Below, piece by piece: positions 1 through 20,418 of a stretch of 21,213 bases of DNA. Both the position numbers and the translations under genes were made by a program. The DNA lies in the IMG/VR virus record IMGVR_UViG_3300031702_000059, positions 1 through 21,213 of that record; one strand, 5' to 3'. How positions within the stretch are numbered: position 1 is the first letter of the stretch; the number at the start of each line of letters is the position of its first letter. Source of the stretch: a virus. Under the pieces are notes generated by a model. It saw nothing but the letters and a program-made list of their open reading frames with translations. It was not told the DNA's origin and ran no database searches.

Positions 1-906
1 TCCTAACCTTATGAGCGTTGCCGCAAGATTTATCTCTGGGTCGCTTACTAACGTATGATCAACTAGTCCTTGTTTAATTACTAGGATAGCACTTTCCTGT
101 TTTTCATCATCACCAAACAAAGAAATATTATCATACAACCACTTGTATATATCTTCTATTTCTTCTGGGCGAGCTTGACTACACACTAGTTTTCTTGCTT
201 GACCAATCTTGCCAGCTTTAAACAGTTCAACCATTTCAAGTTTGTAATCTGCATCGCCGCTGTCGCTCTTTGCTGGCGGAACTAATGCACCGTCTACACA
301 GTTCATTTGTACCATATTAATACATTTGCGCAAGTCTGGATATGTAGCCTTTACGTATGTGTCTAGTACATCTAAATCTGGAACAACTTCTTCTGTAATA
401 AGAATCTCAGCTACTCGTGCTGTAAACTCAGTTTGGTCAATGCGTTCAATATGAAAGCCTTGGCAACGACTATGTAGTGCAGGAATAATTCTGTTAGGAT
501 AGTTACAAGTCATAATAAACCTACTTGTAGTATGATACTCTTCCATCACGCCACGTAGTGCGGCTTGTGCGTTAGGCGACAAATAGTCAGCCTCATCAAG
601 TAGTACAACCTTAAAGTCACCAAACGGAATCATTTGTACAAAGTTTACAATCTTGTCACGCACATCTTCTACAGAGTTTGTACGACTAGCGTTAATTTCT
701 AGTACATCATACTCGTTTACTTCTAACTGGTTAAGTAAAATTTTAGCAAGTGTTGTTTTACCAATACCTGCGTTACCACTAAACAATAGATGCGGAATAG
801 TACCGTCTTTAATCCAAGTGTTTACTTGATTACGCTGATGTTGATCTCTAAAAACATAACCATCTACTGTTGCTGGACGGTATTTCTCTACCCATAATTC
901 CTTCAT
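1..906 (-). CDS. 44: Sliding-clamp loader large subunit, T4 gp44-like (3' end beyond window)
   Basis: AAA+ ATPase that, with gp62, loads the phage sliding clamp (gp45) onto primer-template for DNA polymerase. I translated 302 residues from the ATG at 904-906; no stop occurs before the left edge, so the C-terminus is missing. It opens MKELWVEKYRP, the usual start of clamp-loader subunits. Walker A GNAGIGKT lies at residues 44-51, Walker B VVLLDEAD at 100-107, and the SRC motif (HSRC, arginine finger) at 145-148. The ATG overlaps the dexA stop by four bases (ATGA), so the two are probably translationally coupled. It is the third gene of the unit read from the sigma-70-like promoter at 1647-1675. 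T4 gp44 is about 319 residues, so only a short tail should be missing. Gene 62 would be expected next to the left, but that is outside the window. Confidence 0.95.
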   Translation of the reverse strand, partial: MKELWVEKYRPATVDGYVFRDQHQRNQVNTWIKDGTIPHLLFSGNAGIGKTTLAKILLNQLEVNEYDVLEINASRTNSVEDVRDKIVNFVQMIPFGDFKVVLLDEADYLSPNAQAALRGVMEEYHTTSRFIMTCNYPNRIIPALHSRCQGFHIERIDQTEFTARVAEILITEEVVPDLDVLDTYVKATYPDLRKCINMVQMNCVDGALVPPAKSDSGDADYKLEMVELFKAGKIGQARKLVCSQARPEEIEDIYKWLYDNISLFGDDEKQESAILVIKQGLVDHTLVSDPEINLAATLIRLG

Positions 907-3005: not shown

Positions 3006-3539
3006 TTATCTCAGGAACTCTCTCCAATCCAGGTCATACTGGATCGAATCTATTTTGTGTACACCTATTAAGTATAACACATAACTTGCTACAGAGCTAC
3101 CTCTACCTACACCCCAAACAATATTATTCTCACGCATGAAGTCTACAAGATAGATCATGTAACGTAATAAGTCGTGCATACCACGTGCTTCATATTCTCT
3201 AAGTTCTTCCCATATACGTTCTTGATGGGGGATTTCCTCACAGGGTATTTCTGCTTTACCTAATACATAATGGTATACATTAAGTTCTTTATATTTGTCA
3301 GGCATAAACCATTCGGACTGTAACGCACCGTCAAAGTCTTTCTGCTCTACATCAATTGGGATATATTGTTTAAGCTCAGGTAAGTACTGATCACGCATTG
3401 CTTTGTTAAATTGATCAATGTCGTCACTTGGGTCACATAGTACTACGTGGCATTTGTCAGCATGACCTGAATAGATCATGTCAATAAGATCCTTGTTAGA
3501 GAATCGTGGTATTCCTAGGTTGTCTGTTTTCATTAGCAT
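3006..3539 (-). CDS. DnaE-like protein limited to the N-terminal palm segment; no catalytic Asp
   Basis: 177 residues. About residues 105-177 match the stretch of bacterial DNA polymerase III alpha just before its active site: a helical region with ERIWEELREYEARGM and LLRYMIYLVDFMREN, then the signature VWGVGRGSSVASYVLYLIG, and HKIDSIQYDLDWREFLR at the C-terminus. In DnaE the next residues would be the PDFDxD catalytic motif; here the gene stops, so it cannot be a polymerase. The first 100 residues are unassigned. I recall a similar free-standing protein in T4-like cyanophages, so this seems a settled family rather than a fresh truncation. No Shine-Dalgarno is evident; starts at 3539 (MLMKTD) and 3533 (MKTD) are both possible. 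A hairpin at 3551-3568 lies just upstream. Confidence 0.75.
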   Translation of the reverse strand: MLMKTDNLGIPRFSNKDLIDMIYSGHADKCHVVLCDPSDDIDQFNKAMRDQYLPELKQYIPIDVEQKDFDGALQSEWFMPDKYKELNVYHYVLGKAEIPCEEIPHQERIWEELREYEARGMHDLLRYMIYLVDFMRENNIVWGVGRGSSVASYVLYLIGVHKIDSIQYDLDWREFLR

Positions 3540-4425: not shown

Positions 4426-7383
4426 TTACACATTGAATTGGTAATTTCCGAACGGTATGTATTGTTCGTTACTGTTTCCATTTGTACTGTCAATATTGTA
4501 TCTTTCAATCTCAATATCTAGTTGTCTAAAGTCAAAGTTACTATTTTTAATATTTAGAATTACACTATCTGCTTCGCCCGGCTTACAATAACATAACGGT
4601 ATTGCAAGTGTAAATCCTAATTCTGACTGTCCTTGCACTTGTGCAGTACGCATCCATAATGGATAAAACTCTCTTAGATTGCTACCTACTGCTCTAATAC
4701 GATCTCTCATATTAGTAATATTACTGATATATTTACGTTGATCTTTACTGTCACTTACTAATACTGCATCACTGTCAATTTTGATTGTATTAGTTGTTGG
4801 GCGCAATCTTAAACTATCAGAGCTAATACTGTCGTCAATATCTGCTACTACAATGTCACTACCGTTACGTAGTACAAGAGGTATATTGCCGCCCGGTGTA
4901 AACAACACAGGACCAACTCTTGTATAGAATGTAATAGTTCCTGTTGATGCAGGACTAGTTCCGTCACCGCCTCTAAGGCCTAACGTAAAGAATCCTTCAC
5001 CTGTACCAACACCAGTATTATCGTCAGTGACTGAATATTGAATACTATCTGTTGTAATCTTATTTTTTGTTGTTGCTACAAAACTTTGTTTTGTTTTTCC
5101 TTTGATTGCATCCGGCTCGTCTGGATCAATAACTTCTAAATATATTACTTCATATACAGTGTCATTACTTCCAGGATTTTTTGCTATTGCTTTTTTAACT
5201 TGGCCTAGCTTATAACTTTTTCTCTTGTGATTCTTTGCCGCGGCCGCTACAAATTCTCTTACATCTTTAGTTTCAATGCCGGCATACGCTAACATTTTAA
5301 TTTCGCTTTGTAATCCAAATGTATCATCGTTTGGTCTATATACGCTTCTTGGTGTAAAGATAGTTGGATCAGATACAAAGTTTCTAAAGTTTATTCTTTG
5401 TGTTTGTTTTAACAGTGGAACCATTGATAAACTACTGTATAGTAAATCATCTGGATCTGTAGTAGTGATAGTAAATGTTCTAGTTGATGCACTAAATTGG
5501 AATTGATCCTGTGCCTTAACAGTAAATGTGTAACTACGGTCAATGGTAGTTGTAAGTCCGTCAAACGTTGTTGCTGTAGTTGCTTTGTCAATAGTTGTTA
5601 AGCCCAAATCACCAACTGCACCAAACTGTTTAATTTTACCTTGTAGCTGTCCGTCGATTGCTAACGTAATGCCAGGAGGCAGTCTTCCTGATTCAAAGCT
5701 ATAAAGTACAACCGCGCTGGTAACATTACTAGTAGCACTAACACTTAATGTACTAACAAAGTTTGCTCTTAAATTTCCAAGACTGGCCGCAGTGTTCCAT
5801 GTAATGGCACTTTCGACCTCGCCTAATAGCTTAACACTGAATTGTTTATCTTTAGATACAGTCGGATTGCTAGTAATAGTGTTACGCTTATCAAAGTTAT
5901 AAAACGATATTGTAACAACTTTATTTGAGATAGTTGCACCATTTGAATCGTATGTTTTATATCCTACGTTAGGAATAGTTCCAATAAACTTACCTCTAAG
6001 ATAGTCAGTTGTTCCTACTTCAATTTTAGTAGTAGCAGTATTTTTTGAAGTAGAAGTAACTCTACCATTTTCTATAGTCCATACAGTTTTATCAAGTACA
6101 TCAATTGCAACATATGATTTATTATCACCTGCATCTGCTGTAGAAACAGCCGCCTCGTTAAATACTACCCAACCCGATCCGCCTAATCCGTTAAATCTAG
6201 TATCAGCAAATTCTGTCCATGAAACATTTTCGTCACCGCTCCATGTCTGGCCTATACCAAAGCTATTTGCAAATGGCTGTGTTGTTGTATCGGACGAAGA
6301 ACCTAGTTGTCTTAGTGCTTCGATTGTAAAATTATATTCTCGTGTAACAGCTGGCTGATAAGGAATACGTCCTGCAATTTCTCCAGTAGTACTGTCAATA
6401 ATCATGCCTGGCGGCAATGCACTTGCGCTTCCGTCTGCGTTTGAATCTTTAACTGTAAAGCTAATAATTCCTGTGTTACTAGTTGGATCATATACATCAA
6501 GGAATAGTGTTACATAGTTGTTGGCTCTTCTATATCCCAAGTCGCTTGGTGTTAACCAAACTGGTGCTCTAAGGTATGTGTTATCTGCCGTAAATAATCC
6601 TGTAGCAAGTTGCATAATAGTATTATCTGATCTTAGGAAATCGTCACCTACAAGATAGATTTGAAACTTGCGGTGAGCAATAGTAACACCGTCGCTTGCA
6701 CTTACTGTAAATTCGTAATATCGATTTAATTTTTTAGGACTTCTAGTAGCAACATTATAATCATAAAATGTTGTATCGTAGTAATAGCTTTCAAAACCGT
6801 TTGCGCTCTTGACACCAAAATCAAACGCATGTTGTCCGTATGTATTTGTATCAAAGAATCCGCTATTTGCTCGTTGTTCTAACGCTAATATAGGTTCAAC
6901 TATTCCTGTAAGTTTACCAGTAGTAGTACCTAGTGTAATACCCGGAGGTAGTTCGCCGTCATTGTCGGCAATAAAGTATTCAATAGTGTCGCCAGCTGGT
7001 AAATCAGGATCAATAAGTTGTAATTGGAAATCTACTAAACTACTGTCTAAAATATAAAATTTGTTGTTAGGACCTATTGCTAACGGTCCTTCAGGAGTTA
7101 CCCATACCGGAGCATCTGCACCATCAATTTTTAATTTTAATGTTAAGTCTTCTGTGACATTGTCATTAACTGCTCTCATTACAAACTTAAATGTCTTTAG
7201 AAAGTTTACTTCATTAGGAGTTCCTGTTAGTGTAGTTCCTTCTATTCTTAGGCCACTCGGTATTGCCCCACTGATGAGTGTAAGAGTACTTCCGGCAGAT
7301 ACCGGTAATGGTATTGTCTGTGTGATACTTTCTTGAAATGTACCTAAGTTGTAACCTGTACTAACGGTCCATAATTGTGCCAT
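4426..7383 (-). CDS. Large structural protein with Ig-like (He_PIG-type) segments, 985 residues
   Basis: Probable tail-fibre or baseplate protein made of beta-sandwich segments. At least four carry the putative-Ig signature of a Pro-Gly turn followed by a short strand and TGxLxG: AIPSGLRIEGTTLTGTP (40-56), ELPPGITLGTTTGKLTG (144-160), ALPPGMIIDSTTGEIAG (322-338) and RLPPGITLAIDGQLQG (about 567-582). Each is preceded or followed by a cadherin-like strand such as YYEFTVSASDG or YTFTVKAQD. The C-terminal ~180 residues differ: the segment EFYPLWMRTAQ, a CYCKPGEADS motif, and the tail YIPFGNYQFNV. No signal peptide or gp10-like module is present. It starts nine bases after the 232-residue gene, with AAGGAA as ribosome site. 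Ig-like domains on phage particles usually bind surface glycans; that role here is inferred. Confidence 0.78.
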   Translation of the reverse strand: MAQLWTVSTGYNLGTFQESITQTIPLPVSAGSTLTLISGAIPSGLRIEGTTLTGTPNEVNFLKTFKFVMRAVNDNVTEDLTLKLKIDGADAPVWVTPEGPLAIGPNNKFYILDSSLVDFQLQLIDPDLPAGDTIEYFIADNDGELPPGITLGTTTGKLTGIVEPILALEQRANSGFFDTNTYGQHAFDFGVKSANGFESYYYDTTFYDYNVATRSPKKLNRYYEFTVSASDGVTIAHRKFQIYLVGDDFLRSDNTIMQLATGLFTADNTYLRAPVWLTPSDLGYRRANNYVTLFLDVYDPTSNTGIISFTVKDSNADGSASALPPGMIIDSTTGEIAGRIPYQPAVTREYNFTIEALRQLGSSSDTTTQPFANSFGIGQTWSGDENVSWTEFADTRFNGLGGSGWVVFNEAAVSTADAGDNKSYVAIDVLDKTVWTIENGRVTSTSKNTATTKIEVGTTDYLRGKFIGTIPNVGYKTYDSNGATISNKVVTISFYNFDKRNTITSNPTVSKDKQFSVKLLGEVESAITWNTAASLGNLRANFVSTLSVSATSNVTSAVVLYSFESGRLPPGITLAIDGQLQGKIKQFGAVGDLGLTTIDKATTATTFDGLTTTIDRSYTFTVKAQDQFQFSASTRTFTITTTDPDDLLYSSLSMVPLLKQTQRINFRNFVSDPTIFTPRSVYRPNDDTFGLQSEIKMLAYAGIETKDVREFVAAAAKNHKRKSYKLGQVKKAIAKNPGSNDTVYEVIYLEVIDPDEPDAIKGKTKQSFVATTKNKITTDSIQYSVTDDNTGVGTGEGFFTLGLRGGDGTSPASTGTITFYTRVGPVLFTPGGNIPLVLRNGSDIVVADIDDSISSDSLRLRPTTNTIKIDSDAVLVSDSKDQRKYISNITNMRDRIRAVGSNLREFYPLWMRTAQVQGQSELGFTLAIPLCYCKPGEADSVILNIKNSNFDFRQLDIEIERYNIDSTNGNSNEQYIPFGNYQFNV

Positions 7384-7392: not shown

Positions 7393-8091
7393 TTAACTAA
7401 AACTAGTGCCAAATTCTGCTGTAGGCTGTGCTGACGCTGTAAACGTACTAGAACCGTTATCAAAATCAACAGTCATATTATGAATCAAGTATTCTAATCC
7501 AGTACTAAATGAGTCTGGGTTAAATAGTCCTAAGTCTAGTTCGTTAACATAAGATTGTATCCCATCCATTTTACGGATATCAAGATTGTGTACTAAACCT
7601 GTCATATTACCTACATTAGTAATATCATTAGTTTGTGCGTTCAGTGTTGCTGTTAGTTTAGGTGCTGTATCAGTTTGGACTGACGTAACACTTGACACTG
7701 TAATCGTTGTTCCGCTTAGATTTGTAGTAGTTGTTCCGCCACCTGCAATAGTTAATGCATTACTGTTTGAATCTAGTGTAAGGTTATTATTATCAGCAAA
7801 CACTTGTACGCTAGGTAAGCCTGTTGCTGTACTATTAATTGTAACAGTATTAGCATCAGAAGCAAGTGTTATCGCTGACCCAGCTACAATCTTTTTAAAC
7901 TGTAGCTCTGCTAAACTTATTTGCGCAAAAATACCCTCTCCACTAGCTCCTAGATTAGCTCCAGTTGTTTGCTCCGGCGATCTTGCACTAAGTTCTGCAA
8001 AGTTGTTATTAACTTTTACAAACGCTTCACGAAGGTCATCACCTGTGCCGTCGTTTGCTATCTGTCCTATATTTACTGTCTGAATTGCCAT
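7393..8091 (-). CDS. Baseplate/fibre protein with gp10-like N-terminal module, 232 residues
   Basis: Residues 1-36 (MAIQTVNIGQIANDGTGD, then LREAFVKVNNNFAEL) match the start of T4 baseplate wedge protein gp10 as I remember it (NINIGNVVDDGTGD, KINENFDELY). In T4 that region anchors gp10 in the baseplate. The rest is a Thr/Ser/Ala/Asn-rich beta repeat (TVTINSTATGLPSV, LTLDSNSNALTIAGGG, TTTNLSGTTITVSS) and a C-terminal part with LDLGLFNPDSFSTGLEYL. It has its own late-type promoter at 8109-8116 and the strong ribosome site TAGGAG. Likely a short fibre or connector hanging a receptor-binding tip on the baseplate. The module is clear; the exact role is inferred. Confidence 0.75.
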   Translation of the reverse strand: MAIQTVNIGQIANDGTGDDLREAFVKVNNNFAELSARSPEQTTGANLGASGEGIFAQISLAELQFKKIVAGSAITLASDANTVTINSTATGLPSVQVFADNNNLTLDSNSNALTIAGGGTTTTNLSGTTITVSSVTSVQTDTAPKLTATLNAQTNDITNVGNMTGLVHNLDIRKMDGIQSYVNELDLGLFNPDSFSTGLEYLIHNMTVDFDNGSSTFTASAQPTAEFGTSFS

Positions 8092-8108: not shown

Positions 8109-8116
8109 TATTTATT
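8109..8116 (-). promoter_or_regulatory. T4-type late promoter (AATAAATA)
   Basis: Minus-strand AATAAATA, one mismatch to TATAAATA, overlaps the stop codon of the protease gene and lies 17 bases before the ATG at 8091, with AGGAG in between. It would restart late transcription for the 232- and 985-residue structural genes. Confidence 0.62.
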
Positions 8117-10610
8117 TAACAACTAACCCTTTAATGTTACTACTAAATGTTTGCGTCTTGCCGTACCTAGATAACATAAATCTATTAGGCCCTCCAACAA
8201 GGTCGTCAGTATCTTCATAATTTGTAAGGTCACTTGCAGTATTTAATATTGCTAGTGAATCTGTTTCTATCTTTGACTTTAGCTGTGCAGGAGTAAGTCC
8301 TGGCTCAGTTTGCAAATATGTTGCTCCTACGCCGGCAACTTGTGGACTTGCCATTGACGTTCCGCTAATGTTACACTGTCTCCAACTGCTATTGCCGTAG
8401 TATACTGCATCAGCAAATTTATTAGTTTGACTGGTGCAACTAATGATATTGTGCCCTGCCGCATATATATTTACACCTGGGCCTGTTGTGCTAAAACTTA
8501 CTTTACGTTCTGTTGTAGCATTAGTCGGCGTAGCGTCTGCACACCCTACCATAAATGCATCATCACTATACGGCGAGCTTCCTCTATGATAGTTTGCTGT
8601 AACTCCATTACTTGCAAATACAATATTATTATAATCATCACCGCCTGATACATCTGCTTTAAAACTATTATTACCAGCCGCAATGCACACATGCACTCCT
8701 GCCGCAATAAGTTCATCTACGTCAGTGTCCACTGAAGCTATTCTAACAGGAAGTCTATAAGCACCTGAATTATAGTAAGTTGCAAAGCCGTAAGTAGACC
8801 ACATATGCGCGGCTCCCCCAAACGATGAGTCACTGCCCGAATTATAAGTTGTTCCACGATAAACTATACTCGTAATATTATTAATAGAGTTCCCTACACT
8901 AGAACTATATCCCCAACTCATATTAACAATAGTTGGACGCTTAACTCCTGTTAGAGGATCTGCTTCTTTTGCGTTGTGCCAATTTTTAATAACATCAAAA
9001 CAATTACTAATGCTAATACCAGTACCACTGTCACCTGTACCTTCTAGACCGCCAACCTTAACACTAAAGATCCTAGCGTTCTTTGCCCATCCATATGTGT
9101 TACCAACTGCTGTTCCACCAACATGTGTACCGTGTCCGTCAGTGTCTCTATAATGGTTAGTGTTTTGTGTAAAAGATATTCCACTTTCATCTGCCCAGTT
9201 AATTTGATGTACTCTGTGAAATCCAGTATGTGCTTGATAGTTTGATGCTCCTGCATCATTAGCTTTGAATATACTTTTTAGTGTTGTAAAATTTGGTTTG
9301 CTTAGTACAGGCGAAAAGTATTTTACAAATAGTTGGTAACCTAGTGGATTGTTAACTTGCACACCTTTTGCTGTGCGCATGTCATCAGTCCATTCTGGTG
9401 CAAGGCTATCTCCGCTCCAAAACTCGCTCATACTCCACATGCCCCAATTAAGCAGATACATATATTCTTTATAAGCAATCTCTGCTTGTTCTGTGTTAGT
9501 TGCCCAACTAGGTGCATAACCACTTGGATCAAATTTACTCGCGGCAATAGCTTCTGCCATTGCAAGATGTAGCTTTGTAGTTCGCCATTGTGCATTGTTA
9601 GATGCGTTCCAATTCATATCAACTTCGGAACCAGGAACAGCACCATATATGCCAAACAAATGTATAGTATGAAATAAGTGTTCTACCATTTCTTCAATGT
9701 CGTTATCACTAGTTGAAGGTGATGGTCCTGATGAATTTAGATACCATACCATATCGTTGGTCATATGGCTATCTAAGAAAGCCTGGTATCCAGTATAGCT
9801 TGAAATGCCATCGTCAGTTAAGAAGTTTGGAGTATAGCTTGCACCCCCGCCATAAGCAACTCGTTGAGCTGTTGGCATTCCTGCGTGAACTGTTCCTGTA
9901 GCACCTGCTAATGTTGCAATAAGATTTTTTTGATAACGAAGGTTAATACTAGCACCAGTTGGGTCTATTAATAGTTTTACTACTTGTGCAGTTTTCTCTG
10001 CCCATATATCTGGTACTGCTGTTTGTCCACCTACTGCTCCTGCAACAACAATCTTTAATCCATGTGATGTAACTTGTCTATCAAACACTGCGCCATTTGT
10101 ACTGTTAGCGGCAAGTGTTGTGCTAATATAATCGCTAGTGTTTTCCATAATAAATTCTGGATGATCAATTTGTAATCCACTATCTTGAATAACTACATCA
10201 ACTCCGTGCCCGTCTAGTACGTAGGGCATAGTTGCGCTAGTAGTAGTTCCAGTACCGTATTGGTTTTCTCTAATGCTGTGTCTTATTTTACCCCAGTCGT
10301 AGTACTCGCCTGAATCACTAGTACTTTTATTAAAAGTTCCAGTTTGTATTGCAGTCAGTCCAATCTGAATATCTGTTCTAACTTCTGGAGGTAACTGTAC
10401 ATCGAGCACTCTTGAATCATTGCGTAGAGCTTGGGCTTCATCGTTAGTTAGTGCGTAGTGCGTGTTTCTTTGTGATGCAGGTCTAGCGTTTTCAACACCA
10501 ACAATACGTTGAGGAATATCTCCACCGCCTGTTTCTGCAATCATCTCTTGGTTAAATGCAGTGTAGTCTACATCCTTATGTAAGGTTACAATATACTCAC
10601 GTTCAGTCAT
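8112..10610 (-). CDS. Subtilisin-like (S8) serine protease with ~300-residue insert, 832 residues
   Basis: The catalytic triad is complete: D143 in VVIQDSGLQIDHPEF, H493 in DGHGTHVGGT, S752 in SGTSMASPQVAG, and the oxyanion Asn N647 in AAGNN. Residues 1-75 (REYIVTLHKDVDYTAF onward) resemble an I9-type prodomain, the folding chaperone of many subtilases. No signal peptide is seen, as expected for a virion or cytoplasmic phage protein. In subtilisin the Asp and His are about 30 residues apart; here 350 residues separate them. The insert (about 160-485) is unrecognised, contains EEMVEHLFHTIHLFG with three His at three-residue spacing, and is rich in Trp and Tyr. The gene lies between fibre genes in the late block with the ribosome site AAAGGA, so a particle-borne protease or a fibre/prohead-processing enzyme is likely. 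Substrate unknown. Confidence 0.9.
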   Translation of the reverse strand: MTEREYIVTLHKDVDYTAFNQEMIAETGGGDIPQRIVGVENARPASQRNTHYALTNDEAQALRNDSRVLDVQLPPEVRTDIQIGLTAIQTGTFNKSTSDSGEYYDWGKIRHSIRENQYGTGTTTSATMPYVLDGHGVDVVIQDSGLQIDHPEFIMENTSDYISTTLAANSTNGAVFDRQVTSHGLKIVVAGAVGGQTAVPDIWAEKTAQVVKLLIDPTGASINLRYQKNLIATLAGATGTVHAGMPTAQRVAYGGGASYTPNFLTDDGISSYTGYQAFLDSHMTNDMVWYLNSSGPSPSTSDNDIEEMVEHLFHTIHLFGIYGAVPGSEVDMNWNASNNAQWRTTKLHLAMAEAIAASKFDPSGYAPSWATNTEQAEIAYKEYMYLLNWGMWSMSEFWSGDSLAPEWTDDMRTAKGVQVNNPLGYQLFVKYFSPVLSKPNFTTLKSIFKANDAGASNYQAHTGFHRVHQINWADESGISFTQNTNHYRDTDGHGTHVGGTAVGNTYGWAKNARIFSVKVGGLEGTGDSGTGISISNCFDVIKNWHNAKEADPLTGVKRPTIVNMSWGYSSSVGNSINNITSIVYRGTTYNSGSDSSFGGAAHMWSTYGFATYYNSGAYRLPVRIASVDTDVDELIAAGVHVCIAAGNNSFKADVSGGDDYNNIVFASNGVTANYHRGSSPYSDDAFMVGCADATPTNATTERKVSFSTTGPGVNIYAAGHNIISCTSQTNKFADAVYYGNSSWRQCNISGTSMASPQVAGVGATYLQTEPGLTPAQLKSKIETDSLAILNTASDLTNYEDTDDLVGGPNRFMLSRYGKTQTFSSNIKGLVVK

Positions 10611-10620: not shown

Positions 10621-12537
10621 TTAATGTAAGTCTACCCAAGCGCCACCAGCGTAGCCTTGGAATTTATTTGTAGTTGTATTGTAAATGGTATCGCCATTTA
10701 CTCCTGTAAGAGCGTTGCGTTCAGCAGTTGTAAAACTTGCTAGTCTTAGTGGACTTTGTGTAATCTTAACAGCGTCTTCAGCAATAAATTCAATTGAGCT
10801 TGCACTTGTAATCTGTGGAACTCCTGTTCCTGTGCCTTCAAAACTTTCTGCTTGCAATGATCCTGTTACGATCATATCGTTTTGTACTGTAAGATCGCTA
10901 CTTAATACCATTGCTGGCGTTACTGTAATTGCACTAGAATCGTCTGTATCGATTATGCTAGAACTAAATGTAAAGTTCCCAACTGATTCACCGCCTGCCG
11001 CGTTAGTCCAAATGCCTCCAACGTATTTTATTACTTGGTTTGCCAACGGGGTGTTAATACTTACATCAGACAGTGTAGTGATACTAGTTGATGTTAAGTT
11101 TGCAAGATAGCCTGAGTCGTTTGTAAATGAACTTACTGCTGTGGGCTTTCCTGATAAGTCAGCATATGCTCCTGTAGTTGCTACTGTTGCTAGTGTAGGT
11201 GTGCCTGTAACATTTGAGTATTGTACTCCTGTAATATTTGCACCACCGCCGTAGAAGTTAGTTGCATAAGCGTTTAAATAAACATTGTTGCTTGCGCCTA
11301 AGTTATATGTACTAGTTGCAAAAGGTGTAACATTACCAAAGCTAACACTATCACTTACTTCAGAGCCGCCTGCTAATACTTGACTAAGTGTAAGTCCTGT
11401 TAAACTTGCACCACTACCAACAAATGATGTACCTTTTATATCGCCTGCTACTGTTAATTTGTGTGTAGGGGCAACATCAAATATACCAATGCGTTGCGTA
11501 CCTGTATCAATATACATTGCTGATACTGTACCGCCCGATGGCTTAATTTTAAAGTTCATGTCCTGCTCAGTAACACTGTTTTCAAAAATTACTGCGTTGT
11601 CAATATGTATTTTTAAGTTATTGTTAGTACCAACTACAATACCCATATCACTATTAAATGTTACTGAACCGTTTTGTGTGTAATTTCCGCTAGTACTAAC
11701 AGAATCAGTAATTCCGTATCCTGATAATGTTGTAGGAGTGCCAACTAGTGAACTCCATTCGCTGTTAAACAATGCAGGTTGATTGGTTAAGTTAGTGTAG
11801 TCTAAAAAGTATGGGCTATCAAATCCGTCAAGTGTATCTGCATTTAATCCGCCGCCACCCGAAGTAGCATCATTAGCAGGTGCCCACTTGGTACCGTCCC
11901 ATTTTAAAACTTGTCCCGGAGTGGGCGGAGTTGATTGAGTGTCAACATCATCTAAGTCGCTAATGTCATCTACAATACTAGGTTTGTTTGTTAAGTTATT
12001 ATAACTACCTGTTGTCGCTACTGTAGCTAAACTAGGTGTTCCAACAATTTCACTATAATTAACAAAGCTATTAACCCAAGCACCGGCATTGTCTTGTCCA
12101 GCTGTAGTATTCCATTTTAATAGTTGGGTATTTGCTAACCCTGTTAACTCAGTGGTAATGCCGCTACCACCACCACTGCCGCTAGCAGTTGAAGCAATAG
12201 TAATTGTTCCATTTAAGTCATCATATGTGATGTCGATGTTAGAGCCTTCTCTAAGTACAGCGTTAACTCTGTCATCAACTCTTTCGTTTGTAAAATACTG
12301 ATTAGTGCCTTCAGGTAAGTCTGTTGTGCTTGCGGCTACTGTGGGCTTATCTGCTAAGTCGTTCCAACTTCCACTAAACGGATTATAACTAATCCCAGCA
12401 AGTGTAAGTCCTGTTGCAGAAATATTTCCTGCACCGGTTATACCCGATCCTGTTAAGTCTAAATTATCACCTATTGGTAATTCTTTTAGTTTGTTGCTAT
12501 CGTCTCTATCAACAATTAATGGTATTCTATTTGCCAT
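10621..12537 (-). CDS. Tail-fibre protein with repeated GTP..LATVATTG..KP units, 638 residues
   Basis: Opens MANRIPLIVDRDDSNKLKEL, a start I associate with marine T4-like fibre proteins, and lacks the gp10-like module. The body is built from short repeats of a W/Y-x-DL-x-x-KP type: SWNDLADKPTVA (about 56-67), SYNNLTNKPSI, DYTNLTNQPALF, AYADLSGKPTAV. Two larger units, at 11140-11208 and 11977-12045, share LATVATTG. Other segments include QVLKWDGTKWAPAND and a middle part THKLTVAGDIKGTSFVG like other fibre shafts. The C-terminus (RLASFTTAERNALTG, then NTTTNKFQGYAGGAWVDL) is a common phage fibre ending. It lies between the 92-residue gene and the protease gene, 10 bases from each, and should be in the late operon from 20388. 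Receptor binding is inferred. Confidence 0.82.
   Translation of the reverse strand: MANRIPLIVDRDDSNKLKELPIGDNLDLTGSGITGAGNISATGLTLAGISYNPFSGSWNDLADKPTVAASTTDLPEGTNQYFTNERVDDRVNAVLREGSNIDITYDDLNGTITIASTASGSGGGSGITTELTGLANTQLLKWNTTAGQDNAGAWVNSFVNYSEIVGTPSLATVATTGSYNNLTNKPSIVDDISDLDDVDTQSTPPTPGQVLKWDGTKWAPANDATSGGGGLNADTLDGFDSPYFLDYTNLTNQPALFNSEWSSLVGTPTTLSGYGITDSVSTSGNYTQNGSVTFNSDMGIVVGTNNNLKIHIDNAVIFENSVTEQDMNFKIKPSGGTVSAMYIDTGTQRIGIFDVAPTHKLTVAGDIKGTSFVGSGASLTGLTLSQVLAGGSEVSDSVSFGNVTPFATSTYNLGASNNVYLNAYATNFYGGGANITGVQYSNVTGTPTLATVATTGAYADLSGKPTAVSSFTNDSGYLANLTSTSITTLSDVSINTPLANQVIKYVGGIWTNAAGGESVGNFTFSSSIIDTDDSSAITVTPAMVLSSDLTVQNDMIVTGSLQAESFEGTGTGVPQITSASSIEFIAEDAVKITQSPLRLASFTTAERNALTGVNGDTIYNTTTNKFQGYAGGAWVDLH
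11140..11208 (-). repeat. Fibre repeat unit, copy 2
   Basis: Encodes 23 residues starting TGTPTLATVATTGAYADLSG. It pairs with the copy at 11977-12045, which encodes VGTPSLATVATTGSYNNLTN and three more residues. The protein match is strong while the DNA has drifted at third positions, so this is an old internal duplication kept by selection. Confidence 0.7.
11977..12045 (-). repeat. Fibre repeat unit, copy 1
   Basis: Same 69-bp unit as 11140-11208, about 837 bp upstream in the same reading frame. Both copies precede a further KP-type short repeat, consistent with a repetitive fibre shaft. Confidence 0.7.
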
Positions 12538-12547: not shown

Positions 12548-12826
12548 TTATAATGCCGCTATACGTACTTTGAATGCCGCAAAGTCTGCACTTGCCGCTA
12601 CTTCAGTTTTTAATGTTGCTAAACTTACATACCCTGGTATAATGCCATTTACAGCATCTACAAGTAATGTACTGTCATCAGCAAATACACTTCCTACTAC
12701 ATCTCTATTTGTATTGGTTACATTTAGTTCTGCAAAGTTATCGTTGATTTTTTTAAACGCCGCTCTTAAAGTGTCGCCGTCACCCTTGTTAGCACTTGTG
12801 CCAATGTTTACTGTTTGAATAGCCAT
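12548..12826 (-). CDS. Stand-alone gp10-like N-terminal module protein, 92 residues
   Basis: Residues 1-36 (MAIQTVNIGTSANKGDGD, LRAAFKKINDNFAEL) are nearly the same as in the 232-residue protein at 7393-8091, and the DNA around the two starts is also alike. After the module come only ~55 residues (VVGSVFADDSTLLVDAVNG onward), ending FAAFKVRIAAL. So it is a baseplate-attachment module without a fibre. It begins one base inside the end of the giant fibre gene (TAATG), with GGGAGAG as ribosome site, and is followed after 10 bp by the 638-residue fibre that has no module. It could be the docking adaptor for that fibre, a competitor for the docking site, or a shortened adhesin. Confidence 0.75.
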   Translation of the reverse strand: MAIQTVNIGTSANKGDGDTLRAAFKKINDNFAELNVTNTNRDVVGSVFADDSTLLVDAVNGIIPGYVSLATLKTEVAASADFAAFKVRIAAL

Positions 12827-15800
12827 TATACTCTCCCTACCACAACTTCGACTGTGCCGCGATCGTCAGTAGTTTTATTAGCTACTGCCTTTCCAATTAC
12901 AGTTCCAACTTTGGGGTCATTGTCTACAATAGCATACCCTGGTATAGCACTTGTAACAAGCAAGTCTCCTTTATGTACTTTGCCTAGTACCTTAACAGGT
13001 ACACGCCCTTGTAGTGCAATAGTTCCTATAAACTCTCCTTCAAGTTCTGAATTCATTAAGTATGCAGGATGAGCTGAAATAACACCAGCTATTCTTCTAT
13101 CACCTTTAGTGTGTGCTAATGTAACTTCTTGTTCGCCACCAAACACAACAACTGTGCCTTCTTCGTACTCAGCGTCTGCTAAGTAATTCTCTGCCAAGTC
13201 AGCATATTTTGCACTTGATGAAATACTCGATACTGCGTTAGCATGTACTGTACCAAACTTTAATGCACTAGTACCTAAGTCGTAGCCGCCATTTGAACTT
13301 GGAACTACTTGTGATTGCTTAAACACTACTGCCGCAACGTTATTATTTGCAACAATAGAAACTTCGCCTGCACTACTAAATCCTGTACCTGCTCCAATAC
13401 CAATACCTGTACTCGAAGTACTCTTTTCACCTGGTGCTTCAATAAAGCTAGTATACATCCAGTCTGACGCCACCCTCGGTGAGTTCAGTGTAGCATCACT
13501 TGGATCTCCGTAACTACTATTCTGTTGGAAGAACGATGCTGTAATACTAGTGTCGCCTACTTGTAATGTACCTGGCAACGTAGTAGTTGTATTACTTGGA
13601 ATTGTACCAACTGTGTTAAACACTGTAGCACCACCCGGTGTCTTCATTGTCATTGTTAAGTTAGTTTGATCTAAAATATCGTAGTTATCAAGTTTGATCT
13701 TTTGTGCATCAATACTTCCGTCTGCGCCTGTTTTAATAATTCTATCAGCAACACCTGTTGTAGTAAATGAACCACCTGTGTTAACAATAGTACTAAATGC
13801 AATGGCACTTGCATCGCCGGTAGCTGATGCGCTTCTGCCATACACTGTGTTTTGTGCTACATCCGGTAAGTCGGCAAAGTCAACTGCACTTGCGGCTAGT
13901 GTTACCCAACCGTTTGTTACACTAAAGTCACCACTATCAAAACTTGCTAGTCCTAAATCACTTTGTGCAATACCTGATGCGTTTGCTCTTGCACTTGCGG
14001 CAGTCATTGCTAGTTTACTTTGGACAATCGCCGCACTAGCATTGATATCCGAGTTAATAATAACACCACTAGTAATTGCTGTTGTTGCAACGTTGTTTGT
14101 AACACTTAAAGTTACATCACCTTGTAATGTTGCGTTGTCGTAACTTGTACCATCCCATACTAGTAAGTCATTAGTGACTCTGTTACCAATGTCTGCACCA
14201 ATTGCTTCTGTACCAAATGGTGTTCTAGCATCTACATAAGATTTTGTAGACAAGTCTTGTGCATTGGTAGGATCAGCTGAGTTATAAATCTTATTACTAC
14301 CGGCATTAAGGTTACCTGTGAATGGTGTAGTACCATCTCTTGCAAGTGCTCCTGGTCCAATAGTTCCGGTATTAATAATGACACCGTCTCTATCAAAGTG
14401 TAGTCGTTTCTCAATAAACTTTTCAGTTGCAAATTCTGTTGGAACTGCCGCCGGGTCACCATCTGACATTGTATCATCATTACTAAACTCTTGTATTCTA
14501 ACACCCTGTCTAAATCCAAGTCCGTCTAAGTTACTAATGGCAATACTTGCCGCGAATGTAACTGTACCAGTTCCTTGGTCTACACTAAAGAATTTACCAA
14601 CTCTAAAGAAACCATCCTGGTCTGTACTTGCAAAGAATACTCTGCCCTTGCCACGTTCGTTAACTTCTGCATCTTGGTTAGCACTAAGAGTTGACTGACC
14701 GTAGATAATACTTGGATAGTTAGTAGTGTTAAATCCACCTGTACCAATTTTATCAAAGTCGTGTCCGTTAGCTCTTAGAGTTGAAATACCAACTGTAATG
14801 GTACCAGCTTCGTTATCTTGTAATGACAATGAAATTGTTCTAGTTGCGGCTGGACTAAATCTTAGATCTGCACCAATACCTGTATCACCAAACAATCCAG
14901 CATTACTATTAATGTTACTCGATGCTAAGTCAGCTATGTTAACTGTAGCATATGAGCCTCTGCTTGTATAGTTTGAAACAACATGTGTCTTACCTGCAAA
15001 GGAGAAGATCATATCGTTATTAGCAATACGTGCAATTTGCGGTGCTGTTAGTGTATCAATAGCAATTACATCGTCACCTACAGTAGCACCCATTGTGGTA
15101 CCTGTGCCAGCATATGTATTCAATGCTGATTCTGTAGTTCTAAGTGTTAGATTTAAGTGAGTAAACGGTGAGTCTAATACTACCTGGAATCTATCTGATG
15201 CTAGTGCAGTACCGTCTGCATCTTGGTTATTAAAACTAATTGTTCTATAAACTGAATCTTCATTCTCTGTAAATATTAATGCTGTTGAAGGTCTTGTTGC
15301 TGTAACACCACTCAATCCGTCCAGCAAGTGGTTCTTGTTCATTCTAACAACAACGTATGCTGATGCATCACTTGCCACTGTTGGATTGTGTACACCTGTG
15401 ATAGCTGTTTCTAATCCTGTGCTTCCTGAAACACTACATCTGTATATAGGGCTGTTAGCACCCTTACGTCCTGTTGGTCCTGTTGCGCCTGTGTATCCAC
15501 CAATGTTACTTGTAATTGGTGCAACAATACTTGTTGCTGTTACTTCGTAAGTTGTAACACCTGCCGCTGTGTATACGTCAATTAAACTGTTTGGATAAGG
15601 CATGTAATCACAGTCATATAAGAAAATACTAAACGCACCTTGCGCATGTCCAAACGTACCAAATCCAAATGTGTTACCGCTATCGTTAAACACTTTAGCA
15701 GGTTGTTGCATATTTCTTAGTGTTACAATATCATCAACAGTTTCGTTTGGATCTGATCCTGCCGCAACTAAACCAAAGTTACCGTTTGCGTTAGAACAGT

Positions 15801-18800
15801 TAAGTGCTCTAATCTCTGAACCGTTGTTACTAAAGAACGCTGTATGGTTGTAATAAGTAAATGTCGATACTTGCTCTGATAGTGCCGCGTTGTTACAAAA
15901 TAATCCATAACCTAAGTCGTTAACTTGAGTATAGTCGTTTGCCAACATACTTCTGTTACCAGCAGTTTGAACATAAATTGCTTGAGGGAAACTTGTTGCT
16001 GTATAACCATTGCCTTCATTTGACAATTTGTTAATTAATAGTTTAGCTGTACCAGCCGCTCCATCATATTCTGAAACAGCATCAACTTGATAACGGATAC
16101 CGTTAATAAAGAATGGCGCAGGAGTTTGTGGTTTTCTAATTCTTAAACCGGTGCCTACATCTGATTCTACATTAAGTGTGTAGTTGTCGTCCTTACTTGT
16201 AATCTTAGTTTCTAAGTTACCAGCAAATCCATCAATGTACATACCACCTTTAAAGCCTTGCTTGTTTGTACTTCTTGAGAACGATCCACATACTTGTGTG
16301 TATGGTGATTTGATTAGAACCTGTCCTGCAGGGTCAAGTACTTGCGCAAATCCACCGTGTCCTTGGAATGACATGTTTGCAAGTCTTGTTGCATCATTCA
16401 TTAAGAACACATCCATTTGATCGTTTGTTTTCTTAGCACTTGCTACATTCATCGGATCAGTTAGATAGTGATAACCGTAATTTGTTGTTTGTTTAATGTG
16501 CCAAGCACCCGATGCAATATCATTCAAGTTTGGAAGAACATCTATAGTTAGTGTAACTTCAAAGTCACTTCCACCATCAGAATTACTAATAAGTCCCATT
16601 GCACCATTGTCTGTGTAGAACCAAGCACCGTCCCATGATGTTGGAGCGATGTTGTTTGCTGGAGTAACTGTAATTACGCCGCCTGCTTGGTTTGTTCCTG
16701 TTATAGCAACTACTTGTGCTGTTGCTAAGTCAGAGCCAGTTACATCTGTAATTTTTAGATTGTCTAGTAACTTGTCTCTGTAAAAATATGTTGTTGCCCA
16801 AGGTGATTGTGAAATCCGTTTTGCTGGTCTAATTTGGCAACGTCTAAAGTCTGAACCTTTAATCGAAACGTTAGCAGGAACTTTTAATGGATAGTCTTCA
16901 TAGTAAATGCCTGTTTCAACATGTACTGTAATTTGCTTCTCAGCAGTTGGGTTGCCGTATTCTAAGTCTTCACCAATTCTAAATTCAGTCGGCTCAACTA
17001 ATACAACTTGTACTCTATCGTATGCTACGCCACCTAAGTCTACTCCGCTTTGGTATTTTACAATACGTCCTCTAGCACCCGATGTTTTACCAACAATAAT
17101 TTTACCGGGTAAAATGTCTACGTTAGTGTTAATACCTTGGTCAGTACTATCATTGCCTGTTCCGTTACCAAAGTCAACATTGTATGTAGTACCTTCAACT
17201 AGTGTGTAGTTGTTTCTTGCAGTAAAACCATTTTCTAAAATATCAAGTATAATATCAAACTTAGCATTTAGAGCATCTTTGACTTGTGTACTAACAGTTG
17301 TAATGGATGAGTCTAACCACTGTGGAATTAAAGTTGTGTAATCTGATGGATAAACTTTTGTTCCAAATTCACATTCAAACACAATGCTATCTAGTACAAC
17401 AACATCACCTGCACCTAATCCGTGTGCAGTAGTAGTTGTAATAACACCTTTACCTGTTGTGTGGTTATAATTAAAACCACTTATGTTATATGCAGTACCA
17501 CCAAATGTAACAGTACCACCACTAACATATGTGTGTGCATAAGGATTTGTTCCTACTGCTACTTGTAATTGGGTTGATGTTAAATTATCAGTTTCTACTG
17601 CAAAACGTCTACTTGCTGTTAACAAATCTGTATTACTAACAACTGCATTTACAATAGACTTAGCTTTAGTCATTGCCGCTCTAGTTTCTTGTCCTTGACT
17701 AATACGTGCTCTAGCGCCCGAAGTTGTACTAAAATAGCGTGTAGCGGCTTGTATAGCATTATAGTTTGAGTTAGTACCGTTGCCGATATCAATAATCATA
17801 CCATCAACAATTAAGCCAACATCTCTTTCACAAGTATTATTAGACTTAACTGGTTGCTCAGGAGGAACTAATACAGTTAGTCCGTTTGTAATAACGTTTG
17901 TAATTGTAGTTGTTAGCGTACTTGCTCTGTTTGCAACATCGTTAACGCCCGTGCCTGATTCTACTGTTAATCCAGTTGTAGTATTTTGTGTAAATGTCTC
18001 TGGGTAAATTTTAGCAGTAGTAACGCCATTGTACGTACAGTTAACATTAATAGCCGCAAGTGTTACTACATTGCCTGCTGATAATCCGTGATTGGTTGTA
18101 GTTGTAATACTTGCAATGCCTGTTGCTTCATTATATGTAAATCCGCTTACTGCTAATACACTAGCATCTGCTTTGGTTACAGTACCGCCGCTAATATATA
18201 CGTTTGCGCGACTACTGCGACCAATGTAAAATTCAAATACAGTTGCGGCTAAGTTATTACTATCGACTACAAATGTAGTTTGCTTTGATGTGTATGCTGA
18301 GTTTGCTAGTACATTATTAACTACTAAGTCTCTTGCAAATTCAATTGCACCGTTAGTTTGTGCAATTTGATCAGCGGTACCTAAGCCTGTACCAGATGGA
18401 CCTACAGCATTTTGATTTCCTGCTAGATAACTAGCGGCCATTCTACGTGTTTCTAAGTTGCCGCCTTTTGATAAATCGTTAATCCATGCATCTACAATAT
18501 AGCCTACATCACGCTTACATTTTTCACTACTGTAATCAAAGTTATTCCATATACCTGAGCCACCAGCTGTTCCAACATTATGGTTGATCCAGTACGTAAC
18601 TTCTTCTTGAATAAATTCTTTGTTCTGAAACAAAATTGCTTCGGCGTTAGGATTGGAAACACTTGATGAGTCATAGCTAAGATTTGGAAACGTATCGTTT
18701 ACATAATCAAGAACTGCTTTTTGTATAAACTTTTTATTCTTTCTTAGATACGTTTGCGCACCGTAAGCCGCTGTGTTAGGAGTTGTTGTGCCTATTGCTT

Positions 18801-20043
18801 TAACTAGTGCAACACCTGCACCATTGTCGTATGTAATTGTTTGCTTGTATGCGCCGGGCTCAACTGGGGCGCTTTCAATAACTTCTTCAGCTTTTAATAG
18901 AGCGCCTTTTAAACTACCATATGCATAACTTAGCCCACGTCCTTCTAGTCCTACTGGAGTACGTGTTTGTGTATCGTCACCTTGCATAGTAACAAATAAA
19001 TCTTCAGTGGATGCATAAGAATTGTTATCAACATATAGTTTTGATGCGGCTTGCTTGTCGCTAATATTACCTGTGTCTGTTCCTGCTAAGTCACCTGGGT
19101 GATCATGCAAGTACAATGCACCAGTCATGTCATCGCCTTGGCGTCTTACTGCCGAACTTCTTGGTAGTGTTTCGTTGTCTCTGTAGAATCCGTATAGTGA
19201 ATTATCGTATGCAGTATCTACTACAAGGTCTGTTCCTACAACTGCTGTTGTTGCACCTAGTCCAATGTTAACCTTTACACGAGTAACGTCATTGTTATTT
19301 TGTGACTCTTGTTTAGTTGTGTGTATACTAAGTTGATCTTCTGTTACCCATCTTAGATAGTAGTCTGTATTATTAGTTAATCCGTTTGGTGGAGTATCTG
19401 TTGTAGAGTACTTCCACTTAGTTCCGTTAATACTCCAGTCATAACCATGATCAGTAATTACTAAGTTGCCGCCTCTGTATTCAATAATAGTTCTAGTGTA
19501 TTCGTTTGCGTTAGCAGGCTCAGTTCTAGCATACACTGGCTTTGTTGGCTCAGTTGTTGTATTTGGTGCATAATACTGGTCTTGGAATTTTTTATCTGTT
19601 ACAATATCGTTAATGGTAATTGAACTACCATGTGTGGTATTAAATTCAGCAATAGCCGCTGGAGATGTTGCAATCTTACCAATAGCATAAACCTGGTTAC
19701 CACTTACTGGTCCACCAAAGATCGGTGAAGTATCTGCGTTGATATTTGCACCTGTGTTTGTAATAGTAATACTCGATGCACTGGAGTTGTCAATGCTAAT
19801 ACCATTTCCCGCTGATAGCGTTTTTGATATAATTTCTGTACCAGTTGTGTTACCAATTAATACACCACTTGGTGTAATGCCTGTTGGTGTATCGTTGAGT
19901 GCGGTAAAACTAATAGTTCCGCCTTGTCCAAATACAGCATATAGCTCTGTAAAGTTTTCGTTCGCTTTACGGAATGCTTCACGGATACTATCACCTGTTC
20001 CGTCATTACCCTCTACACCTAAATAAATATCATTCTTTGCCAT
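12826..20043 (-). CDS. Giant tail-fibre/adhesin protein, 2405 residues
   Basis: The N-terminal 38 residues (LGVEGNDGTGDSIREAF, NENFTELY) are a gp10-like baseplate module. Fibre-type segments follow (QAASKLYVDNN near 335). A duplicated unit has CKRDVGYIVDAW at residue 509 and CERDVGLIVDGM at 738, each followed by a beta part with NHGLSAGNVV (651) or AHGLGAGDVV (873). Residues about 1000-1080 (ETGIYYEDYPLKVPANVSIK) look like beta-helix, and a short collagen-like GATGPTGRKG lies near 1515. A second shaft part includes DLSTKSYVDARTPFG. The last ~125 residues (YADLAENYLADAEYEEGTVV to GTVEVVVGRV) form a compact conserved C-terminal domain that I recall from marine phage fibres. It lies three bases downstream of the Fe-S carrier gene, with AGGAT as ribosome site. 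Likely the main side fibre or adhesin; receptor unknown. Confidence 0.85.
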   Translation of the reverse strand: MAKNDIYLGVEGNDGTGDSIREAFRKANENFTELYAVFGQGGTISFTALNDTPTGITPSGVLIGNTTGTEIISKTLSAGNGISIDNSSASSITITNTGANINADTSPIFGGPVSGNQVYAIGKIATSPAAIAEFNTTHGSSITINDIVTDKKFQDQYYAPNTTTEPTKPVYARTEPANANEYTRTIIEYRGGNLVITDHGYDWSINGTKWKYSTTDTPPNGLTNNTDYYLRWVTEDQLSIHTTKQESQNNNDVTRVKVNIGLGATTAVVGTDLVVDTAYDNSLYGFYRDNETLPRSSAVRRQGDDMTGALYLHDHPGDLAGTDTGNISDKQAASKLYVDNNSYASTEDLFVTMQGDDTQTRTPVGLEGRGLSYAYGSLKGALLKAEEVIESAPVEPGAYKQTITYDNGAGVALVKAIGTTTPNTAAYGAQTYLRKNKKFIQKAVLDYVNDTFPNLSYDSSSVSNPNAEAILFQNKEFIQEEVTYWINHNVGTAGGSGIWNNFDYSSEKCKRDVGYIVDAWINDLSKGGNLETRRMAASYLAGNQNAVGPSGTGLGTADQIAQTNGAIEFARDLVVNNVLANSAYTSKQTTFVVDSNNLAATVFEFYIGRSSRANVYISGGTVTKADASVLAVSGFTYNEATGIASITTTTNHGLSAGNVVTLAAINVNCTYNGVTTAKIYPETFTQNTTTGLTVESGTGVNDVANRASTLTTTITNVITNGLTVLVPPEQPVKSNNTCERDVGLIVDGMIIDIGNGTNSNYNAIQAATRYFSTTSGARARISQGQETRAAMTKAKSIVNAVVSNTDLLTASRRFAVETDNLTSTQLQVAVGTNPYAHTYVSGGTVTFGGTAYNISGFNYNHTTGKGVITTTTAHGLGAGDVVVLDSIVFECEFGTKVYPSDYTTLIPQWLDSSITTVSTQVKDALNAKFDIILDILENGFTARNNYTLVEGTTYNVDFGNGTGNDSTDQGINTNVDILPGKIIVGKTSGARGRIVKYQSGVDLGGVAYDRVQVVLVEPTEFRIGEDLEYGNPTAEKQITVHVETGIYYEDYPLKVPANVSIKGSDFRRCQIRPAKRISQSPWATTYFYRDKLLDNLKITDVTGSDLATAQVVAITGTNQAGGVITVTPANNIAPTSWDGAWFYTDNGAMGLISNSDGGSDFEVTLTIDVLPNLNDIASGAWHIKQTTNYGYHYLTDPMNVASAKKTNDQMDVFLMNDATRLANMSFQGHGGFAQVLDPAGQVLIKSPYTQVCGSFSRSTNKQGFKGGMYIDGFAGNLETKITSKDDNYTLNVESDVGTGLRIRKPQTPAPFFINGIRYQVDAVSEYDGAAGTAKLLINKLSNEGNGYTATSFPQAIYVQTAGNRSMLANDYTQVNDLGYGLFCNNAALSEQVSTFTYYNHTAFFSNNGSEIRALNCSNANGNFGLVAAGSDPNETVDDIVTLRNMQQPAKVFNDSGNTFGFGTFGHAQGAFSIFLYDCDYMPYPNSLIDVYTAAGVTTYEVTATSIVAPITSNIGGYTGATGPTGRKGANSPIYRCSVSGSTGLETAITGVHNPTVASDASAYVVVRMNKNHLLDGLSGVTATRPSTALIFTENEDSVYRTISFNNQDADGTALASDRFQVVLDSPFTHLNLTLRTTESALNTYAGTGTTMGATVGDDVIAIDTLTAPQIARIANNDMIFSFAGKTHVVSNYTSRGSYATVNIADLASSNINSNAGLFGDTGIGADLRFSPAATRTISLSLQDNEAGTITVGISTLRANGHDFDKIGTGGFNTTNYPSIIYGQSTLSANQDAEVNERGKGRVFFASTDQDGFFRVGKFFSVDQGTGTVTFAASIAISNLDGLGFRQGVRIQEFSNDDTMSDGDPAAVPTEFATEKFIEKRLHFDRDGVIINTGTIGPGALARDGTTPFTGNLNAGSNKIYNSADPTNAQDLSTKSYVDARTPFGTEAIGADIGNRVTNDLLVWDGTSYDNATLQGDVTLSVTNNVATTAITSGVIINSDINASAAIVQSKLAMTAASARANASGIAQSDLGLASFDSGDFSVTNGWVTLAASAVDFADLPDVAQNTVYGRSASATGDASAIAFSTIVNTGGSFTTTGVADRIIKTGADGSIDAQKIKLDNYDILDQTNLTMTMKTPGGATVFNTVGTIPSNTTTTLPGTLQVGDTSITASFFQQNSSYGDPSDATLNSPRVASDWMYTSFIEAPGEKSTSSTGIGIGAGTGFSSAGEVSIVANNNVAAVVFKQSQVVPSSNGGYDLGTSALKFGTVHANAVSSISSSAKYADLAENYLADAEYEEGTVVVFGGEQEVTLAHTKGDRRIAGVISAHPAYLMNSELEGEFIGTIALQGRVPVKVLGKVHKGDLLVTSAIPGYAIVDNDPKVGTVIGKAVANKTTDDRGTVEVVVGRV
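17175..18519 (-). repeat. Tandem ~225-residue duplication inside the giant fibre (approximate limits)
   Basis: Two units in the same order: a helical start with C-x-RDVG-x-IVD and then a beta segment VYISGGTVT or TYVSGGTVT, SGFTYNEATG or SGFNYNHTTG, and TTTNHGL or TTTAHGL. The Cys codons are 229 residues apart and the HGL histidines 222 apart. The copies have clearly diverged, so the duplication is old. Unit limits are estimates. Confidence 0.75.
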
Positions 20044-20046
20044 TGA

Positions 20047-20370
20047 TTAAAATCCTATACTTTCACCACAGCCACAACTACTTGTAGCGGTAGGGTTTTG
20101 AATGTCGAAATAAGAGCCAAACACTTCTTTTTTATAATCTACTACTGATCCTAGCAAGTACATAATACTCGAGTTATCAATAGCAAATTTGCCGTTTGGT
20201 AAATCTATTACTTCGTCCCGTTCTTCTAAATTATCTTCTAATGTCCAATTGTACTTAAATCCCGAACATCCTCCTCCTTGCAGTTCTAATCTAATAGCTG
20301 GCTTGCTATGCTCTAAAAGCATGCTATCCATCTGTTTTATAGCTGATTCCGTAAGGGTTACAATTGACAT
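20047..20370 (-). CDS. A-type Fe-S cluster carrier (HesB/IscA family), 107 residues
   Basis: The product has all three family cysteines: C35 in GGGCSGFKY, and C99 and C101 in SSCGCGESIGF, with the canonical 63-residue gap. Such proteins bind and hand on 2Fe-2S or 4Fe-4S clusters, or iron, to target proteins. IscA, ErpA and SufA cannot be told apart from sequence alone. I chose the ATG at 20368-20370 (MSIVTLTESA): it has GAAGGA eight bases upstream and fits the late promoter at 20388-20395, whereas extending to 20439 would add a non-homologous leader running through that promoter. It is the first gene of the late operon and is followed three bases later by the giant fibre gene. Full length with no missing ligand, so it is probably active. 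Confidence 0.92.
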   Translation of the reverse strand: MSIVTLTESAIKQMDSMLLEHSKPAIRLELQGGGCSGFKYNWTLEDNLEERDEVIDLPNGKFAIDNSSIMYLLGSVVDYKKEVFGSYFDIQNPTATSSCGCGESIGF

Positions 20371-20387
20371 TTTTATTTCCTTCTTTG

Positions 20388-20395
20388 TATTTATA
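20388..20395 (-). promoter_or_regulatory. Perfect T4-type late promoter (TATAAATA)
   Basis: The minus-strand sequence TATAAATA is an exact match to the T4 late promoter, 17 bases before the ATG at 20370, with GAAGGA in the short leader. It should drive the Fe-S carrier and the downstream fibre genes. No sigma-70-like pair is seen in the same direction. Confidence 0.8.
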
Positions 20396-20418
20396 CTTTG
20401 TTTTGCAATCCGAATGTA

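Follow-up and report, generated by a model that had tools for sequence, protein, structure and literature searches.

A mobile domain with a predicted zincin-like fold nested in the variable subtilisin-like protease of a marine phage

The window described here, a 21,213-base stretch of DNA (positions 1 to 21,213 of IMG/VR virus record IMGVR_UViG_3300031702_000059), carries on its minus strand, at 8112-10610, an open reading frame for an S8 (subtilisin-like) protease of 832 amino acids (aa) whose catalytic domain is split by a nested domain that we call INS. INS is a horizontally mobile, self-contained domain, and variation in the window has a single hot spot, the S8+INS gene, the adjoining fibre genes being nearly constant. 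This singles out one gene, and one domain within it, as the variable element of otherwise near-identical marine phages, a group in which host specificity is hard to study. INS also represents a previously unannotated domain family, with invariant residues of enzyme-like character, that is found in putative virion proteins and in apparently exported proteins of marine bacteria; it is a large enzyme-like domain that shuffles between such phage proteins, with recent swaps visible in the DNA. The parts of the gene are as follows.

8112..10610, minus strand: S8 protease gene with nested domain (stop codon 8112-8114)
10371..10610, minus strand: residues 1-80, prodomain-like N-terminus without signal peptide, kept in S8 relatives with and without INS
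10182..10184, minus strand: catalytic Asp143 (VVIQDSGLQIDHPEF)
9231..10094, minus strand: INS, nested mobile domain, residues 173-460, after the DHPEF motif
9132..9134, minus strand: catalytic His493 (DGHGTHV)
8670..8672, minus strand: oxyanion Asn647
8355..8357, minus strand: catalytic Ser752 (SGTSMASP)
8112..9230, minus strand: C-terminal part of the S8 catalytic domain, residues 461-832 plus stop

The S8 chemistry of the protease appears well founded in its sequence. The Pfam family Peptidase_S8 covers residues 471-785 (E 4.3e-23, 82.5 bits against a cut-off of 21.8), and the Asp part falls outside this match because the insert pushes it out. Where relatives lack the nested insert, these parts join into an uninterrupted S8 domain, and in one such relative (L037) a single S8 match spans 134-473. 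A preliminary description of the window, made from the sequence alone, had reported a complete triad and oxyanion Asn at D143, H493, S752 and N647; all four lie exactly there, in the sequence order D143, H493, N647, S752, and are invariant in 15/15 full-length relatives of the same architecture. Furthermore, the cyanophage tail-cluster S8 family phrog_9158 matches in two stretches, the N-terminal and S8 parts (E 1.7e-86). The same description had placed an insert at about residues 160-485 between Asp and His. The insert is present, and homology together with the edges of DNA cassettes sets its better bounds at 173-460. Judged by motif position, the insertion point would be the subtilisin surface loop near residues 42/43; in subtilisins, small insertions are tolerated at these positions, and insertions lie at the surface (PMC9549277). 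The N-terminus, read directly, has no hydrophobic stretch, in agreement with the reported lack of a signal peptide. The I9-like prodomain that had been proposed was not confirmed, since residues 1-131 gave no Pfam match of any kind even at E 10; the low-confidence full-length AlphaFold model (predicted local distance difference test, pLDDT, 39.6) has a strand and helix order there that would be compatible with I9. As an observation the preliminary description, which gave no strand, held as a whole, and its interpretation is supported in part.

The insert had been said to resemble nothing that could be named, as if unique to this protein, yet INS occurs in at least 191 marine viral loci. It is carried by S8 proteases, inside or attached, by a YHYH baseplate protein of cultured cyanophages and by giant tail proteins without S8. 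Stand-alone INS proteins are found in marine bacteria; they bear signal peptides or lipoboxes, look exported, and also include InlB-type or PG-binding-like domains. Among the fetched loci, where architecture counts are biased towards the query, INS was placed in the S8 Asp-His loop, in a second S8 loop (L082), C-terminal to S8, after the prodomain (L064, L069) and in tail proteins that lack S8. A close cultured counterpart of the nested domain in an S8-less protein is the YHYH 'baseplate wedge subunit' of about 1700 residues in S-RIM2, S-RIM12 and Syn33. Its INS is 46-52% identical to that of the window (46% in the 1713-aa S-RIM2 protein; S-RIM2 and Syn33 span the range) and has the same invariant motif. 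It differs in that INS lies inside a YHYH protein and that the S-RIM2 genome has no detected S8.

The INS tree divides into two main branches, both of which contain members from phages and from bacteria, and along the tree the placement of the domain changes 12-15 times, rows ending at a contig or locus end having been set aside. For the Asp-His placement by itself, at least 4 changes are forced by well-supported branches. One full copy was found in each of 13 phage records checked, 1 of the 13 also having a fragment at the contig end. At the DNA level, INS blocks of 903-924 bases are in frame and 89-94% identical between unrelated genes (L071/L084, L085/L093, S-RIM2/L071 and L082/L084), while their flanks show either no similarity or only weaker matches in separate pieces. 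In one branch the cassette edges read (A/L)DPEYNNG... and ...GASGYVVD, and no inverted repeats or target duplications were seen there by eye. The ratio of nonsynonymous to synonymous substitution rates (dN/dS) of INS is 0.09-0.19, and INS is therefore under purifying selection. Ig-like domains are known to be promiscuous in phage structural proteins and have spread horizontally among many virion proteins. INS resembles them in occurring as one domain in many such proteins with horizontal spread, but it is larger, is present in a single copy per record, has enzyme-like conservation and is swapped on its own within one gene.

Several loci deserve separate mention. In the 252-kb record G301 (the L068 record), S8 is encoded in a 538-aa frame and INS belongs to another protein, of 4835 aa, so that the two coexist without fusion. 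At L069:3587-6388 the S8 domain that follows INS looks degenerate by eye, the catalytic Asp and His positions being apparently replaced and the Ser motif kept, and it is a possible pseudo-protease. At L096:1184-8833 a flavobacterial INS lipoprotein gene adjoins genes for an alpha-L-fucosidase, a DUF6786 protein and an InlB-type-repeat lipoprotein. The idea that INS is common among relatives of the Opitutales host was rejected, since 1/286 sampled genomes of the class has it.

Natural swaps appear when the window is compared with contigs L017 and L018, and L018 with L020. The window and contig L017 share 13.5 kb, in which every gene other than the protease is 98-100% identical. In the protease itself, the N-terminal part of S8 is 99.2% and the C-terminal part 95.7% identical, against 77% for INS. 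The INS of L017 is instead 97.1% identical to that of L018, the S8 parts of L017 and L018 being 65-71% identical. L018 in turn matches about the whole window at 96-100%, except for the S8+INS gene at 70-75%, and L018 and L020 share an S8+INS gene that is 95-99.6% identical between flanks of 77-81%. Therefore the whole gene and the INS cassette have each been exchanged, the INS-only swap being seen in one contig, L017. Metagenomic chimeras are an unlikely source of these patterns, as several contigs carry the L020-type gene and unrelated pairs repeatedly show cassette moves. That the protease is swapped beside constant fibres argues against a role in fibre maturation and for a variable interaction partner, which would most simply be a host surface molecule. 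Swaps amid constant surroundings suggest that the protease, or INS, acts on whatever differs between hosts.

Since the preliminary description had proposed structure prediction of the insert and a similarity search, it is relevant that these gave a confident model whose top matches, at modest scores, are zincins. The AlphaFold2 model of INS, built with 36 sequences, has a pLDDT of 91.8 and a predicted template modelling score (pTM) of 0.91. VIA-align lists nothing but zincin metallopeptidases, from several families, in its first 37 rows, with PPEP-2 best at Z 7.6 and PPEP-1/-3, lethal-factor domains, collagenases, lugdulysin, aminopeptidases and neurotoxin light chain among the others; the first unrelated row has Z 3.5. 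The model suggests that INS may resemble zincins (nearest PPEP-1/2/3, M34 type, and clostridial collagenase) in its strand order, in the helix that bears the motif and in a subsequent helix that carries an invariant Glu. In zincins, however, HEXXH lies on the first helix in place of EHxxH, sequence similarity is undetectable, and Z stays below 8. The motifs concerned are these.

9660..9683, minus strand: EHLFHTIH, residues 310-317, with E310, H311, H314 and H317 on the predicted active-site-like helix 301-321
9462..9470, minus strand: KEY, residues 381-383, with invariant E382 on the predicted second, glutamate-helix-like helix 373-391
9390..9398, minus strand: PEW, residues 405-407, invariant

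The four EHLFHTIH residues had been pointed out before and stand at the positions given. E307, E310, H311, H314, H317, K381, E382 and E406 are identical in 69/69 INS sequences; the predicted helix 301-321 carries E307 and the four motif residues, and helix 373-391 carries K381 and E382. A divergent Verrucomicrobia family aligns with INS over 229 columns (hhalign E 8e-5, probability 61%); it has EEVLH at the place of EHLFH and TEY at that of KEY, so that E310, H314 and E382 are kept. On our reading, E310, H314 and E382 would form the metal site, and residue 311 would take the position of the catalytic Glu. If INS is active, this would be an unusual zincin-like metal site. The suggestion that the insert has a second, metal-binding activity thus gains support from the predicted fold and the residues kept in 69/69 sequences, the motif itself not being HEXXH. 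Searches of Pfam, NCBIfam and PHROGs with INS gave nothing credible, nor did a PDB sequence search with INS profiles, and the solved PPEP chains did not match the INS profile at E up to 10. In the literature we found no relevant paper on EHxxH and none on tail proteins joining S8 to a metallo-domain. The divergent relative has no Pfam family of its own and occurs in Verrucomicrobia at L100:2720-4861, where it stands in tandem with INS, and at L123:1492-2304 (minus strand).

A tail or virion role of the S8+INS protein is suggested by association. In the window the gene has gp9/10-type and fibre genes as neighbours on either side. In two loci (L039 and L057) one polypeptide comprises S8, INS and a C-terminal match to a gp9-like baseplate wedge tail-fibre connector (phrog_677, E 1.5e-7 and 2.8e-5), and in a third (L036) INS is fused to a baseplate wedge protein. 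In P-SSM2 an S8 gene that lacks INS stands in a comparable fibre/spike gene cluster, and in S-H38 and S-CREM1 the S8 gene is placed between gp9-like and other baseplate genes. The earlier view that the S8 protease lies inside a tail-fibre cluster is upheld, and its being particle-borne is suggested indirectly by the P-SSM2 cluster and the gp9-like fusions. The T4-like cyanophage S8 proteins (P-SSM2 PSSM2_297; S-H38, S-CREM1, Sf-FR1; phrog_9158) are like that of the window in their N-terminal region, S8 domain and tail/baseplate neighbourhood; unlike it, they have no INS, are about 550-610 aa long and are about 31-35% identical to it in S8 (BLAST). An S8 peptidase, T4-GC518, has been reported in P-HM1 and P-HM2 (PMC3037559). 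In the cultured phages found, S8 and INS are on separate proteins or one of them is lacking. No S8 or INS protein could be identified in the virion proteomics papers on S-CREM2 and S-SZBM1, the latter phage not being among the 40 S8-bearing records.

We propose, with about even confidence, that a tail-mounted S8 protease acts on host surface molecules and that INS is an exchangeable metal-site module of it. The protein would be made late in the cytoplasm, without a signal peptide and together with the tail, and would be mounted on the baseplate or fibres. INS interrupts its S8 catalytic domain behind the Asp motif, at what by position would be a surface loop of subtilisins, and the predicted zincin-like fold of INS would present a metal-site-like helix pair (E-H-x-x-H ... 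E). At adsorption the serine protease would most likely cleave a host envelope protein, and INS, lying beside the S8 active site, would hydrolyse (which we favour) or bind the same target, most likely as a metal-dependent hydrolase. Differences in that target from one host strain to another would be the reason why phages trade cassettes, either INS alone or the complete protease gene. Several points weigh against this proposal. VIA-align Z values below 8 can arise by chance, and the best INS row has 7.6. Foldseek gave no significant match for INS (best E 1.5; none below E 0.3 in PDB and BFVD). HEXXH is absent, EHxxH standing in 69/69 INS sequences. Finally, INS is present in genomes without detected S8, such as S-RIM2, and therefore does not need an S8 partner.

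The best-surviving alternative, which we hold as possible but clearly short of even, is that INS is a non-catalytic receptor-binding domain on a zincin-like scaffold, directing S8, or tail proteins of other kinds, to a host molecule that varies. Promiscuous placement, a lone copy in each record and the swapping of alleles at one locus are the behaviour of a receptor module, the canonical HEXXH is missing, and a putative receptor-binding role has been discussed for YHYH-type proteins of this operon (PMC7029224). Allele swapping of INS as such fits a recognition domain or a metal-binding activity alike. Binding faces, however, are usually the most variable parts, yet in INS 69/69 sequences, from phages and several bacterial groups, keep the charged His and Glu residues clustered on two helices, a pattern that looks like an active or metal site. 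A stronger version of our own proposal, in which INS functions as a metalloenzyme whose zincin site is rearranged (E-H-x-x-H ... E) and the protein is a dual serine and metallo virion protease whose metallo half is a mobile cassette traded to match host surface variants, we regard as doubtful.

The protease could instead be an assembly or maturation enzyme that trims the adjoining fibres or baseplate proteins, with INS positioning it. The lack of a signal peptide and the location in a fibre cluster would suit such an enzyme, and cutting of fibres had been considered in the preliminary description. We judge it improbable, since between the window and L018 the protease is replaced (70-75%) while every neighbouring candidate substrate stays 96-100% identical, and since INS also occurs in genomes without detected S8.

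Two further possibilities concern INS as an insertion, and both are very improbable. A selfish in-frame element (intein-, intron- or transposon-like) without a virion role would account for sharp-edged DNA cassettes in unrelated genes and for the single copy, but not for stand-alone bacterial forms with signal peptides or lipoboxes, a dN/dS of 0.09-0.19, a frequently C-terminal position that interrupts no gene, or edges at which terminal inverted repeats and target duplications are not seen by eye; an intein or other self-splicing element was rejected because it should occur only as an interruption and stand-alone exported bacterial INS proteins exist. TPP II and pyrolysin are S8 enzymes with a large insert between the catalytic Asp and His. 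INS might likewise be an old S8-specific structural or oligomerisation element, at a position where subtilisins tolerate small surface insertions (42/43; PMC9549277); against this, INS is found outside S8 proteins and elsewhere in them, is mobile, shows no detected homology to those inserts and no meaningful PDB chain sequence match to its profile, and reached the Asp-His placement several times on its tree.

The tail genes around the protease are listed below.

4426..7383, minus strand: 985-aa protein with putative Ig (He_PIG) domains
7393..8091, minus strand: 232-aa protein with a T4 gp9/10 N-terminal domain
10621..12537, minus strand: 638-aa fibre-like protein, upstream of the protease, 96-99% identical in relatives with swapped protease or INS
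12548..12826, minus strand: 92-aa protein with a T4 gp9/10 N-terminal-like domain below the Pfam cut-off
12826..20043, minus strand: 2405-aa tail fibre protein (phrog_9851)

The 985-aa Ig-domain protein had no tblastn match in 50,697 phage records and is 99% identical in contigs L017 and L018. Upstream of the large fibre gene, at 20047-20439 (minus strand), lies a gene for an IscA-like iron-sulphur cluster carrier (Fe-S_biosyn, E 1.5e-16). A 177-aa protein at 3006-3539 (minus strand) has only a partial match, to the NTPase domain of bacterial DNA polymerase III alpha (Pfam E 4.5e-11), and looks like a small free-standing piece. Among phage records, the clamp-loader ATPase encoded at 1-906 (minus strand) is closest, at 54% identity, to the PA5oct group, large Pseudomonas phages with genomes of about 285 kb, and not to cyanophages; the window may derive from a large phage.
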